The position numbers and the translations under genes were made by a program. DNA of 64,000 bases, from contig JAFDWU010000006.1 in assembly GCA_018268315.1 (NCBI GenBank), forward strand, positions 1-64,000, given 5' to 3'. The notes beneath the pieces were generated by a model. That model saw only the letters and a program-made list of their open reading frames with translations. It was not told where the DNA came from and did not search any database. This DNA comes from Armatimonadota bacterium (GTDB lineage: Bacteria > Armatimonadota > Fimbriimonadia > Fimbriimonadales > Fimbriimonadaceae). Below are positions 17,093-31,542 of the stretch, one piece after another (positions within the stretch are counted from its first letter, which is position 1; every line of letters starts with the position of its first letter).

Positions 17093-17889
17093 CCCGGCGC
17101 GATCGGGATGGTGGCTTTGCCGGACGCCGTGAGGAAGCCCTCATGGCATTCGATGCTCTCAAGCTGGATCGCGCCTTGCAGGTGCAAGTCGCGGTCAAGA
17201 TCGAGCACCGGCGTCAGCGCCTTCAGTAGCTGATCCCGAGCGAAGCCAACCGTGTAGTAATCGTTCAGCCAAATCTTGGCGTCCGCCAGCACGATCTGCG
17301 TCCCCGCGGCGGGCCTTAGCCGCGCAAGGACCAGGAAGTGGCTTTTCACCAGCACGAACTCTCCATCGCCCTCCACCCAAACCCATCCTTCGCGCAGGGT
17401 CACCTTCACGCTCTTGATCTCGCGGAACTTCTTCAGGATGAAGCGCTCCAAATCCTCTTGGCGCAAGGTTACCGACCCTTGCCCGACTCCACTCTGGCTT
17501 AGCCTCAGCTTGTGCTCATGAAGGGCTAGCCCGGCATCGAACCGGCAGTCGGGGATTCTTGCCGCCAGGGATTCGACTCGCAGGCCCGCCAATGAGAAAT
17601 CGTTCAACGAAATAACAAGCTCCCCCAACCGGCCGCTTTGCGGACGCCAAGGCTGAGTGAAGAGGGGCAGCCCCTCGGTAGAGAAGTGGCGTGCGAGGAT
17701 TTCTCCCCGACGGATGTTGGAGAAGGGAAGACCGAATGGCGGCTCGGGAATCGTCCGCAGCCAGACCTCCTTCGCAGGGCCGGTGAGCTTGGCGGCAATA
17801 TCGGCGGCGGCGTCCCGCTCCACATGCTGGACCTGGGCGCGGATCCCGATCCCGAACAGGGCGGCAATGCCTAAAAGGAGGGGCGCCAT
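17089..17889 (-). CDS. Secreted DUF2993-like lipid-binding protein
   Basis: About 266 residues from the ATG at 17889; a start at 17919 would add ten residues before the hydrophobic segment. The N-terminal helix (MAPLLLGIAALFGIGIRAQ) is a signal peptide or anchor. The body alternates beta strands with repeated short elements ('LGELVISLNDFSLAGLRVES', 'KSVKVTLREGWVWVEGDGEF', 'LLKALTPVLDLDRDLH'), as in DUF2993/LmeA proteins of the tubular lipid-binding (TULIP) fold. The link is by pattern, not a search. A role in lipid handling at the envelope is possible. It faces the E2 gene tail to tail and starts just upstream of the dcw promoter region, divergently. Confidence 0.65.
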   Translation of the reverse strand: MAPLLLGIAALFGIGIRAQVQHVERDAAADIAAKLTGPAKEVWLRTIPEPPFGLPFSNIRRGEILARHFSTEGLPLFTQPWRPQSGRLGELVISLNDFSLAGLRVESLAARIPDCRFDAGLALHEHKLRLSQSGVGQGSVTLRQEDLERFILKKFREIKSVKVTLREGWVWVEGDGEFVLVKSHFLVLARLRPAAGTQIVLADAKIWLNDYYTVGFARDQLLKALTPVLDLDRDLHLQGAIQLESIECHEGFLTASGKATIPIAPG

Positions 17890-18041
17890 AAGTGATTCGC
17901 ATTTTACGGCAAGTGCCACCCCCTAACCAGGGCGAGTGAACTTCACGGGCAACCTTATAGTAGAATAATAGTAGACTTTACAAGTCCTATATTGCAAATT
18001 CCCAAAAACACTCAAATTTAATACAAAAACTCAGAAATTCG

Positions 18042-18071
18042 TTGACACAAATGGGGATTGGTTGCTGTATT
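18042..18071 (+). promoter_or_regulatory. Sigma-70-type promoter of the dcw operon
   Basis: A perfect -35 box TTGACA (18042-18047), then 18 bases, then TGTATT (18066-18071), or CTGTAT with 17 bases. Expected start near 18078, giving a leader of about 138 bases before mraZ. It is the only good promoter seen ahead of the 15-gene run. Confidence 0.55.
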
Positions 18072-18145
18072 GTATCAACAGAAACGTGGCGACGGGGGTT
18101 GGGAGGCTACTTCACCCAGGGCGGGGGCCCAAGTCACGGTTTACC

Positions 18146-18177
18146 GGGGGAGGCGAACCATGAGGGTTTCTTCCCCC
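18146..18177 (+). other. Leader RNA hairpin upstream of mraZ
   Basis: GGGGGAGG (18146-18153) pairs with CTTCCCCC (18170-18177), eight pairs with one G-U, and AACC pairs with GGTT inside, leaving an ATGA loop region. It lies about 40 bases before the mraZ start in the transcribed leader. It has no T run directly after it, so it is a leader structure, not a clear terminator. Confidence 0.45.
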
Positions 18178-18215
18178 ACTAACACCCATAAAATCGAGCG
18201 GAGCGATGAAGTAAC

Positions 18216-18713
18216 TTGCAGGCAAAGAAGAGTAAGAAGCTCGCCGGAGCCGCTCGCCTGGTCGGACGATACTTGTCCACGATGGACTCCCGCGCTCGGG
18301 TCATGGTCGGCCCAAAGTTCCGCGAAGCGCTGGGAAACGATTTTACGATAACGCTTAGTGAGCTCGGGTGTGTAACCATCTTCCCGAAAGCGGCATGGGA
18401 AGCTTTTACCGAAAGGATTTGGGAAAAGGACGACTTTAGCACATCGCGGGAATTGCTGGAACGCCACTTTATCGGTTATGCGGAAGAAGAGCAGAATCTT
18501 GATAGTCAGGGTCGGCTCGTAATCCCTAAAGCGCTCAGAGACAAAGCACAACTCAGCGGAGAAGTGCTTCAAATTGGCCACAGCGGCCGTCTGCATCTTT
18601 GGAATCCCGACGAGTACGACAAGTACGAGTTGGCGATGGACAGTTACGGGGGAGAAAGGCGGCTAAGGCTTGAGCAAGCAAGAATTCGTGTGTTCGGAGA
18701 GGAAGCGCAGTAA
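18216..18713 (+). CDS. mraZ: Transcriptional regulator MraZ
   Basis: 165 residues from a TTG start with GGAG (18200-18203) 12 bases before it. Two AbrB-like SpoVT halves are visible: 'YLSTMDSRARVMVGPKFREAL' matches the first D-x-K/R-x-R half, and 'NLDSQGRLVIPKALRDKAQL' the second, each with the conserved Arg-(x)-P-x-(K/A)-(F/L)-R pattern. MraZ forms rings and binds repeats upstream of its own operon to control it. The N-terminus is about 15 residues longer and more basic (QAKKSKKLAGAARLVG) than usual; if translation starts at a later codon the protein would be near normal length. First gene of the dcw operon. Confidence 0.9.
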   Translation: MQAKKSKKLAGAARLVGRYLSTMDSRARVMVGPKFREALGNDFTITLSELGCVTIFPKAAWEAFTERIWEKDDFSTSRELLERHFIGYAEEEQNLDSQGRLVIPKALRDKAQLSGEVLQIGHSGRLHLWNPDEYDKYELAMDSYGGERRLRLEQARIRVFGEEAQ

Positions 18714-28311: not shown

Positions 28312-29290
28312 CGCGGGCTGGCGTGTTGCCTACGCAGGCAGTCTTCGGGGTCTTGAGGGCAAGGCGTCTACCGCGCTTGGCTGGCCCTTCTTCGGCTTTA
28401 ACACCGGCCCCGTCTATTCGCTTCGCACCCTCGCGGGGATGAAGGGCGCGGTGCAATACGCGCAGGCTCTTGCCGCGACTTCAAAGATGCTGAGGAAAGA
28501 GAAGCCGGATGTCGTTTTCTCGACCGGCGGCTATGCGGCGGGACCGGTGGTTGAATCGGCTCGAAAGCTCGGCATTCCCTATGTCTTGCTGGAGGCCAAC
28601 AGCGTGCCCGGCCGCTCCATCTCTCGATTTGCGCAGCAAGCGGTAGCGGTCGCTACCGTCTTTCGGGGGGCGGAGCAGCACTTTCCCGGTTGCCGGGTGG
28701 AGCGCACCGGCCTTCCCATTCGCGACGCCTTAAGGGAACTTGCCGCCCAACCCGCTGAGCAGAAACGGCAGGTGCTGGTAGTTGGCGGGAGCCGCGGCTC
28801 TGTGTTTCTGAACGAGACCGTTCCAGAGGCTTTCGATGAAAGCATGGACGCTGAGTGGTTGCATGTATCCGGTCCTGACCACTTTGAGGCCACGCGAGTC
28901 CGCGCGGAAGGGAAGCGTGGGTACACAGTTGCCCCATTCCTCGAAGCGGAGGCGATGGCCAAAGCGTATAAAGAATCGATGGTGGTGGTTGCAAGATCGG
29001 GGAGTTCGCTTGCCGAGCTTGCCTTGTTCGGAATTCCCGGCGTCTTAATCCCACTTCCCACATCCGCCGGAGATCATCAGCTTCACAACGCGGAGGAGTT
29101 TGCGGCCATGAAGGCGGCGACCTTGCTCCGGCAATCAGAGGCAACGCCGCAAGCAATCCGCGGCGCGGTTTTGAAGTGGCTGGACGACGAGAGCGAACGC
29201 AAAGCCGCCGCCCTGGCGCTGAAAGAATTTGATGTTCCCGATGCCACCGAACGTATTTGGCAGCTGGTGCAGGCAGGCGCGCGGGCATGA
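28235..29290 (+). CDS. murG: UDP-GlcNAc:lipid I N-acetylglucosaminyltransferase, probable CTG start
   Basis: About 351 residues. The N-terminal motif 'YLIVTGGGTGGHVYPAIEV' is the MurG hallmark, and 'VGFSTGGYAAGP'-like 'VVFSTGGYAAGPVVESA' follows; the C-domain has 'VARSGSSLAELALFGIPGVL', the UDP-GlcNAc site. It converts lipid I to lipid II at the inner face of the membrane. No ATG or GTG is available near the motif. CTG at 28235 has GGAGG (28221-28225) nine bases before it and gives the usual six residues before GGGTGG; TTG at 28241 has a worse 15-base gap. The start lies 77 bases inside ftsW. Confidence 0.92.
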   Translation: MYLIVTGGGTGGHVYPAIEVGKRAASAGWRVAYAGSLRGLEGKASTALGWPFFGFNTGPVYSLRTLAGMKGAVQYAQALAATSKMLRKEKPDVVFSTGGYAAGPVVESARKLGIPYVLLEANSVPGRSISRFAQQAVAVATVFRGAEQHFPGCRVERTGLPIRDALRELAAQPAEQKRQVLVVGGSRGSVFLNETVPEAFDESMDAEWLHVSGPDHFEATRVRAEGKRGYTVAPFLEAEAMAKAYKESMVVVARSGSSLAELALFGIPGVLIPLPTSAGDHQLHNAEEFAAMKAATLLRQSEATPQAIRGAVLKWLDDESERKAAALALKEFDVPDATERIWQLVQAGARA

Positions 29291-31542
29291 GGAAGCAGTC
29301 CGAGATAAACGAGGCGTTTGCCCCCACCGAGCGGCTATCTGGCTTCAACGAGTTCTTCCTGGTGGGCATTGGCGGCGCGGGAATGAGCGCGCTTGCGCGG
29401 TTATTAAAGGCTCGTGGCTTCACTGTAAGCGGCTCGGATTCTACGGCTAGCATCGTCACCGGCAATCTGAATGAGGAAGGCATCCCGGTTACCATCGGCC
29501 ATCGGCGCGAATCCGTACCTGTTGGGGCAGCCGTTATCCTGACCGACGCCATTGACCTGACGACCTCTCCCGAGGTCGCCGCCGCGCGCGAGCAAGGCAA
29601 CCTGATCTTCCGCCGCTCGCAGGCGCTGGGCTGGGTGCTGCAGAACTATCGGCTCATCGCCGTAACCGGGACGCACGGTAAAACCACCACCACGGGGCTG
29701 GTTGGCTTCGGCCTCATTGAGGCGGGGCTCGACCCGCTGGTCGTTGTCGGGGCGGATATCCCGCAGTTTGGCGGCCCGGTGCGGGAAGGCAAGGGCGAGT
29801 GGGCGGTGGCGGAGGCATGCGAGGCGTACAACAGCTTTCACGACCTGAATCCGCAGATCGTCGTGCTAACAAACCTTGAGCATGATCATGTGGATTTCCA
29901 CAAGACTTTCGATGACCTTAAAGGCAGCGTGCTGGAGTTTCTCGCGCGGCTGCCAAAAGATGGCCTCCTGGTGTATTGCGAGGAGGATGCTGGTGCGCTG
30001 GAGATTGCCGCCGCCTATCAGGGGAACAAGATTCCATACCGGGCTAGCCACCTGAAGCTTGCCATTCCGGGCCATCACAACGAGCAAAACGCCAGCGGCG
30101 CACTGGCGGCGATAGAAGCCGCAGGGGCAAACGCCGAGCGCGCAAAAGCAGGGCTGGCCAAATTTGGCGGCGCGGAGCGGCGGTTACAGGTGCTGCACGC
30201 AGGTGAGGTAGCGGTTGTGGATGATTACGCCCACCATCCTACTGAAATCGAGGCGAGCATCCAGGCGCTAAGAGCCCAATTCCCCTCGCGGCGATTAGTG
30301 GTGGTTTTCCAGCCACACTTGTACTCGCGCACCAACGGTCAATTTGCCGATTTCGCCAAGGCGCTGGATAACGCCGACTTGGTCGTCCTAACTGATATAT
30401 ATCCGGCAAGAGAGGATCCCATCCCTGGAGTCTCCAGCGCGCGCATCGTCGAGCTTCTCAAAAAGCCAAGCCTGTACGTGCCCGCTCGTCAACTGCTGGT
30501 GAAACACGTTGCACCAGCCTTGAAGAAGGGCGATGTTGTGGTCGGCATGGGGGCGGGGAATATCGCCAGCTTTGCGCCCGATCTCGTGCGATATCTCACG
30601 AACCAAGCCGACAAGAGCCGCGCCAAGAAGGTCATCGTCCTAAGCGGTGGCGAAAGCGCGGAGCGCGAGGTTTCGCTGCACTCCGGTCGGCAGGTCTTTG
30701 CTGCGCTTCAGCGGCTAGGCTATGCCGCTAAGATTGTCGATCCCACCGCCCTCATGCTTGGCGGCGGCAACCTGACCGAACTGGCAGAAGCGGATGCGAT
30801 TTTCCTAGCGGTACACGGCCCAGGAGCCGAGGATGGCAAGACGCAGGGGTTGCTGGAACTGCTCCACGTCCCCTACACCGGCTGTGGCGTGCTTGCGAGC
30901 GCGCTATGCATGGATAAGCACTGGACCAAGCAGCTTCTAGCCGACGCGGGCTTGCCCGTCCCGAAGGGTGTTCTCTTAAAGAGCGCCAATGAAGAAGTGC
31001 CGTTAACCGGACCCTGGATTGTCAAGCCGAACTGCCAAGGCTCGACCGTCGGCCTCAGCTTTGTGGAGAAGGAAGCCGACCTGAAGCCCGCCATCGCAAA
31101 GGGGCTCGCGTTTGGGGACGTGCTGGTTGAAGAGTGGGTCACCGGTCTTGAAATCACGGTTCCCATCCTGGGCGATAGAGCGCTGCCCATCGTTGAAATT
31201 CAGGCAAGAAACGGCCGCTACGACTTCGGAAGCAAATACGAAATCGGCGCAACTGAAGAAATCTGCCCTGCCCGCATTTCCGCTGAGCTAACCAAGCGAT
31301 GCCAAGACATGGCGCTGACTGCCCACCGCACTATGGGCTGCGAGGGAGCGACGAGGGTCGACATGATCCTCAGGAACAACACGGACCCAATAATTCTTGA
31401 AATAAATACCCTTCCGGGAATGACTCAAACATCGTCTCTACCTAATAGCGCGCGCGCAACAGGCATTGGCTTTGATGAGCTGGTGGACTGGCTGGTGAAG
31501 GACGCAATGACTCGATATGCCGAAAAGAAAGCGAAGGCGTAA
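29287..31542 (+). CDS. murC-ddl: MurC-Ddl fusion: UDP-MurNAc:L-Ala ligase and D-Ala-D-Ala ligase
   Basis: 751 residues, ATG overlapping the murG stop (ATGA). Residues 1-437 are MurC: 'FFLVGIGGAGMSALARLL' (24-40), P-loop 'TGTHGKTTTT' (128-137), 'NLEHDHVDFH' (196-205), 'DDYAHHPTEI' (312-321) and 'VFQPHLYSRT' (340-349). A short basic linker follows (440-448). Residues 448-751 are D-Ala-D-Ala ligase: 'LSGGESAEREVSLHSG' (452-467), 'VKPNCQGSTVGLS' and 'EINTLPGMTQTSSLP' near the end. One chain so makes the first stem-peptide bond and the terminal dipeptide. Such fusions are known in Chlamydiae and a few other phyla. All catalytic motifs look intact. Confidence 0.96.
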   Translation: MRKQSEINEAFAPTERLSGFNEFFLVGIGGAGMSALARLLKARGFTVSGSDSTASIVTGNLNEEGIPVTIGHRRESVPVGAAVILTDAIDLTTSPEVAAAREQGNLIFRRSQALGWVLQNYRLIAVTGTHGKTTTTGLVGFGLIEAGLDPLVVVGADIPQFGGPVREGKGEWAVAEACEAYNSFHDLNPQIVVLTNLEHDHVDFHKTFDDLKGSVLEFLARLPKDGLLVYCEEDAGALEIAAAYQGNKIPYRASHLKLAIPGHHNEQNASGALAAIEAAGANAERAKAGLAKFGGAERRLQVLHAGEVAVVDDYAHHPTEIEASIQALRAQFPSRRLVVVFQPHLYSRTNGQFADFAKALDNADLVVLTDIYPAREDPIPGVSSARIVELLKKPSLYVPARQLLVKHVAPALKKGDVVVGMGAGNIASFAPDLVRYLTNQADKSRAKKVIVLSGGESAEREVSLHSGRQVFAALQRLGYAAKIVDPTALMLGGGNLTELAEADAIFLAVHGPGAEDGKTQGLLELLHVPYTGCGVLASALCMDKHWTKQLLADAGLPVPKGVLLKSANEEVPLTGPWIVKPNCQGSTVGLSFVEKEADLKPAIAKGLAFGDVLVEEWVTGLEITVPILGDRALPIVEIQARNGRYDFGSKYEIGATEEICPARISAELTKRCQDMALTAHRTMGCEGATRVDMILRNNTDPIILEINTLPGMTQTSSLPNSARATGIGFDELVDWLVKDAMTRYAEKKAKA

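Follow-up and report, generated by a model that had tools for sequence, protein, structure and literature searches.

How the dcw cluster of division and cell-wall genes is controlled is a long-standing question, in which MraZ is usually tied to the dcw promoter. A candidate cis-acting structured RNA, the mraW RNA motif, reportedly lies in the mraZ/mraW cluster of Actinobacteria, and is presumably counted among the Rfam families. Leaders bound by CsrA/RsmA, such as those of glgC, hcnA, flhDC, and Bacillus subtilis hag, present A(N)GGAX in short-stemmed hairpins of the 5′ leader, in loops of five or six bases (PMC7652899, PMC4005645). RsmE, as seen in solved complexes with RsmZ, binds A(N)GGAX loops of 5–8 nt on C-G-closed stems, and the core bases reportedly allow no substitution (PMC4005645, in excerpt). 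In flhDC, the mRNA is shielded from RNase E by a pair of CsrA sites close to its 5′ end, and CsrA bridging is reported for 10–63 nt (PMC7652899, in excerpt). A long 5′ leader before dcw, limited to one bacterial family, is described for Rhodobacter sphaeroides, where a Rho-independent terminator within the leader ends the sRNA UpsM (PMC5089854, in excerpt).

Here, we describe the leader of mraZ in a 64,000-nt stretch of DNA (hereafter, the window) from a bacterium of the Fimbriimonadaceae, together with its counterparts in relatives. These leaders resemble the known CsrA-bound leaders in loop sequence, loop size, stem length, and 5′ position, and those of relatives have two sites, as in flhDC. 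They differ in that a GGGG-loop hairpin, kept across the family, stands between the sites, that they precede a dcw operon, and that the sites do not lie over the ribosome-binding site; furthermore, the CsrA sites are predicted from sequence, and the window is without the core. The UpsM leader, compared by description rather than by sequence, is similarly a long, family-restricted leader before dcw, but differs in its terminator. The mraW RNA motif shares with the present leaders its place in the mraZ/mraW cluster and its candidate status as an RNA acting in cis; it differs in being a motif of Actinobacteria, and no Rfam family matched the present leaders at gathering score. The conserved leader was found described neither in Rfam nor in the literature searched, which covered CsrA, mraZ/dcw leaders, Armatimonadetes RNAs, and structured RNA motifs as far as the accessible texts extend.

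The mraZ Leader of the Window

The features of the leader are collected in Table 1, in which HP1, HP2, and HP3 denote three hairpin positions in 5′ to 3′ order. The original prediction had described a G-rich structured leader with many runs of five G and a strong hairpin. The hairpin, HP3, agrees in both position and strength: it folds as GGGGGAGG-c-GAACC[AUGAG]GGUUU-CUUCCCCC with −21.1 kcal/mol (z −3.90), none of 200 shuffles is equally stable, and 6 of 25588 33-nt stretches, taken every 5 nt on both strands of the 64-kb window and including HP3 itself, fold as well. Unusual stability holds for this hairpin but not for the leader as a whole (18077–18235), the stability of which is close to that of shuffles (z −0.08; 95 of 200 as stable). 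"Many" G runs was an overstatement, as 18075–18215 contains three (at 18094, 18123, and 18146), although at least three five-G runs per 141 nt are rare, being found in 0.13% of the 141-nt stretches sampled on the leader's strand.

Table 1. Positions of the mraZ leader features in the window
Feature	Position	Strand	Basis
Possible promoter, TTGACA (18042–18047) and TATTGT (18068–18073), spacer 20	18042–18073	+	Recognized by eye; putative
HP1 position, degenerate in the window's species	18083–18115	+	Without A(N)GGA and without a stable hairpin
HP2–HP3 match to covariance model from 54 other loci	18105–18182	+	24.5 bits, E 0.0073
HP2, GGGC-GGGG-GCCC	18119–18130	+	Fold and model alignment; same hairpin in relatives
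HP3, 13 pairs, loop AUGAG at 18160–18164 (A(N)GGAX in most relatives)	18146–18177	+	Fold, model alignment, and loop comparison
GGAG, likely mraZ ribosome-binding site	18200–18203	+	12 nt 5′ of TTG
ATG-AAG-TAA frame, probably incidental	18206–18214	+	Present, not conserved
mraZ, TTG start	18216–18713	+	Pfam MraZ E 1.9e-22; open reading frame list

The TTG start of mraZ is plausible, because the frame upstream of it is closed by TGA at 18207 and because TTG is the inferred start in 8 of 78 mraZ genes, the window's included. A consensus promoter scan did not report the TTGACA/TATTGT pair, its sole listing being a weaker site at 17942–17969. At the HP1 position, folding is equal to that of shuffles (z 0.04), and A(N)GGA is absent 5′ of HP2. 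A further candidate hairpin, AUCG[AGCGGAG]CGAU at 18193–18207, would cover the ribosome-binding site; it was rejected, since the surrounding 18190–18235 folds no better than shuffles (z 1.31). Of the ten cluster proteins scanned, nine have Pfam matches, comprising MraZ, MraW/RsmH, a penicillin-binding transpeptidase, Mur ligases, MraY, FtsW/RodA, DUF881, FtsA, and a Mur ligase–D-Ala-D-Ala ligase fusion. The fusion is encoded by a single reading frame at 29257–31542, and by position its Mur ligase part is MurC.

Conservation and Covariation in Relatives

The mraZ loci of relatives were collected, and their leaders were anchored on the MraZ domain. A contig search with the MraZ of the window alone found no relative, and a search with an MraZ alignment found 19 named loci. 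The best MraZ matches to the window are 36–41% identical, and no second member of the genus is among the genomes searched. Two nearly complete 1.5-Mb genomes of genus g29 in the same family (G028 and G047) gave no MraZ match.

Leaders of the families f1 and f5 share one order of elements: HP1, HP2, HP3, and then a ribosome-binding site that is often weak. The loops of HP1 and HP3 contain A(N)GGAX, HP3 having the longer stem, and the loop of HP2 contains GGGG or GGG. This arrangement is common to the Fimbriimonadaceae (Armatimonadota) and a sister family, with stems that vary and pairing that is kept. In a sequence-only alignment of HP2–HP3 from 30 leaders, which were chosen for clear visible hairpins (A1), 83.2% of the paired cells can pair, compared to 67.7% after shuffling, and the covariation is 0.486 compared to 0.236, neither value being reached in 500 shuffles. 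Sliding the partners by 1–3 columns lowers the covariation to 0.08–0.22, and changes on both sides are seen in 12 of the 15 pairs. When 74 model matches are aligned, the values are 89.1% and 0.578, obtained from an alignment that is structure-fitted and holds a few chance matches. The G loop of HP2 is the most invariant stretch of alignment A1, with three invariant columns.

For HP1, 63 leaders were examined, of which 4 are without A(N)GGA (L007, L026, L085, and the window) and 59 remain. Alignment A4 contains 48 of these, without the near-duplicates L014 and L089, the leaders with a distant site (L038, L053, L075, L078, L084, and L092), and L042, L046, and L047; the near-duplicates L013, L035, and L044 were further removed before alignments A5 and A6. 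As the A4 leaders were chosen after the pairing had been seen, a choice that could flatter the result, the count was repeated with all 59 leaders (37 with five-base and 22 with six-base loops). The five-base-loop class (28 rows) shows 74.1% pairing against 44.0% and a covariation of 0.624 against 0.182 (0 of 500 shuffles), and the pairing in all 37 leaders is 70.3% against 43.3% (0 of 500). The six-base-loop class (17 rows) shows no significant covariation, with 54.4% pairing against 50.1% (97 of 500) and a one-column slide that covaries more; with all 22 leaders, pairing is 50.0% against 45.1% (76 of 500). In addition, an outer helix round HP1 scores 523 in 44 leaders, compared to 403.5 ± 26.3 in a swapped-partner control (0 of 200).

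In the window, Rfam gave nothing on the leader at gathering score, the single match overall being a tRNA elsewhere, and among 15 loci of relatives searched at E up to 5 it gave three minus-strand matches to other families, all below gathering. By comparative analysis, HP3 of the window is part of a conserved structured leader with compensatory changes in its stems. The check proposed with the original prediction, conservation of the hairpin in relatives with co-varying pairs, had a positive outcome in most of the family genomes searched, and for this reason a regulatory leader of the dcw operon is well supported.

The motif is closely associated with mraZ. At E 0.01, a first covariance model (R1) matches 47 of 76 family genomes, the window's own being among the 29 without a match. 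Of the 48 matches, 46 lie before an mraZ gene; by coordinates, 45 are just 5′ of MraZ protein-search matches, one (L201 in G104) stands before a divergent MraZ-like gene absent from the protein-search results, and the remaining two, which fall within other long reading frames, appear to be chance matches. Across the order, 53 of 113 genomes match (50 in f1 and 3 in f5), and of 151 genomes sampled from the phylum, 12 match at E 0.001, every one of them in f1. For a second model (R2), the training set consisted of 54 loci that R1 matches at E 0.01 or lower; the window was excluded, and L014, L024, L047, and L089 were omitted although they match R1. At E 1, R2 matches none of 30 mraZ loci from f2, f3, other phylum members, and one second copy.

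In the 64-kb window, the best R2 match is the one listed in Table 1, with no non-standard pair flagged, and the next best scores 9.3 bits. R1 gives 17.9 bits for the site (E 0.019 in 64 kb), and in the whole genome of the organism the site, again with 17.9 bits, is the third of four weak matches (E 0.84). Because of this rank at the genome scale, the membership of the window in the motif rests on score together with position before mraZ.

CsrA-Type Sites and Their Predicted Role

Hairpin A(N)GGA sites were counted in 68 leaders, a set that excludes f2, f3, other phylum members, L082, leaders shorter than 120 nt, and any leader separated by fewer than 25 mismatches from another already in the set. 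There are 84 such sites, compared to 10.6 ± 3.3 in shuffled leaders, no set of 200 having more than 19. At least one site is found in 54 of the 68 leaders (9.9 shuffled) and at least two in only 25 (0.67 shuffled), which under this strict rule leaves 14 leaders with none. The csrA gene is present in 91 of 101 relatives, own genome included, and fliW in 39 of the 41 searched. In the genome of the window, csrA encodes a protein of 68 aa and adjoins fliW. Family f2 has csrA, and the leader motif is absent there.

Flagellin leaders of the order served as a control for CsrA specificity, and 29 of the 30 fetched could be placed (loci L171–L199, own genome included). They contain 21 hairpin sites in 15 of the 29 leaders, compared to 4.4 ± 1.9 in shuffles (0 of 200), several of them near the start codon, a position that hag-type CsrA control would predict. 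The flagellin leader of the window's own genome (L198) carries UGCCA[AGGGAA]UGGCA. As hairpin A(N)GGAX sites are enriched in these leaders, the CsrA of this order appears to have the usual specificity.

On these comparisons, we consider it reasonably probable that the conserved and structured RNA before mraZ acts in cis as a CsrA-responsive leader of the division and cell-wall operon. CsrA would bind the loops of HP1 and HP3, and this binding would set the stability or the translation of the dcw operon mRNA. A mode similar to that of flhDC, acting on mRNA stability or leader folding, is favoured over direct ribosome blocking, because the sites lie a long way 5′ of the ribosome-binding site, which is mostly weak. 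A family-wide rule in which this site is directly occluded was rejected, with only 27 of 78 loci having a match of at least four bases to AGGAGG, 3–13 nt from the inferred start. The core-to-core distance between HP1 and HP3, about 60–69 nt in six examples (L011, L013, L020, L025, L029, and L048), is at or beyond the reported range of CsrA bridging. A CsrA reading does not account for HP2.

The leader of the window is a member of the family and also an exception within it. HP2 and the HP3 stem are intact, and R2 aligns the HP3 loop AUGAG with one base missing from GGA. A(N)GGA is absent from the entire leader, which is one of 2 among the 68 without it. Given the AUGAG loop, the degenerate HP1, and the lack of any remaining A(N)GGA, CsrA control has probably been weakened or lost in the window's species, in which HP2 and HP3 may still act through structure. 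Loops of the type ANGAG (AAGAG or AUGAG) replace A(N)GGAX in HP1 of L007, L026, and L085/L086 and in HP3 of L030 and the window; ACGAG in L033 and a second ANGAG-type loop in L085/L086 are located elsewhere in the leader. By PMC4005645, ANGAG loops should not bind, and yet they recur across leaders. Since CsrA in the order appears to have its usual specificity, loss or weakening of a site is likelier for the AUGAG loop than a new site.

Alternative Explanations

It is possible, if rather unlikely, that the conserved RNA is read by a factor other than CsrA, such as a small molecule or another RNA-binding protein, the GGGG loop of HP2 then being the core, and the A(N)GGA loops belonging to the fold. 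The G loop of HP2, with its invariant columns, and the retention of HP2 in a window that has lost the GGA cores could be explained in these terms. However, A(N)GGA loops on changing stems are a known signature of CsrA, their strong enrichment recurs in the flagellin leaders of the order, and no Rfam riboswitch matched the window or the 15 relatives' loci.

There is little likelihood that the G-rich stretch acts as DNA, providing promoter binding sites for MraZ or another protein. In f2, repeated GTGGA/GTGGT words, which presumably resemble the MraZ boxes of other bacteria, occur just before mraZ in place of the RNA leader (L066–L071 and L093–L098), and single GTGG words were seen by eye near the promoter in several f1 leaders. 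The changes in the stems are nevertheless paired while the loops are constant, which argues for RNA, and the motif lies 3′ of the presumed transcription start. It is similarly improbable that HP3 is a terminator or that the leader gives rise to a free small RNA, as the dcw leader of R. sphaeroides does with UpsM (PMC5089854, in excerpt): the + strand of 17850–18300 has no terminator-like site, of the UpsM type or otherwise, and no U run follows HP3 in the window, nor is one obvious in the leaders of relatives, which were judged by eye.

The original prediction had also drawn attention to the two-codon frame before mraZ. Direct reading confirms that ATG-AAG-TAA is separated from the TTG by the single C at 18215, and that GGAG ends 2 nt before its ATG. 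Spacing of 2 nt is very short for initiation. ATG frames of at most two codons ending 0–6 nt before the start occur in 3 of 78 loci (L001, L003, and L057), with unrelated sequences; this count exceeds dinucleotide shuffles (0.3; 0 of 200), as does that of mini-frames near the start (ATG or GTG, at most five codons), found in 14 of 78 loci against 4.3 ± 1.9 (0 of 200). Within 70 leaders, however, mini-frames of at most five codons number 12 in the start bin and 1–15 in the other 18-nt upstream bins, within the range, and two-codon ATG frames number 6 against 0–5 elsewhere, just above it. The frame, which is not conserved in relatives, was rejected as a conserved element and is probably incidental. 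That ribosomes start at 18206, stop at the TAA at 18212, and then restart at or block the TTG, thereby setting operon expression, is scarcely credible: nothing supports it beyond the presence of the frame and the excess of mini-frames over shuffles, and against it stand the short spacing, the lack of a shared sequence, and a frequency not clearly higher near the start than elsewhere in the leaders.

Biological Implications

Through a CsrA-type leader with covarying stems, division and wall synthesis would be connected to a global RNA-binding regulator, and the few species that have lost the loop cores offer a natural experiment. The CsrA-FliW switch is known for flagellin. A more speculative extension, which we regard as possible yet on balance doubtful, is that in the Fimbriimonadaceae this switch also runs the dcw operon through the two-site leader, with HP2 as a second input, and that species like the present one have dropped the GGA cores and kept the scaffold. 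If this is true, growth and division would be tied to the motility or carbon state through CsrA-FliW.
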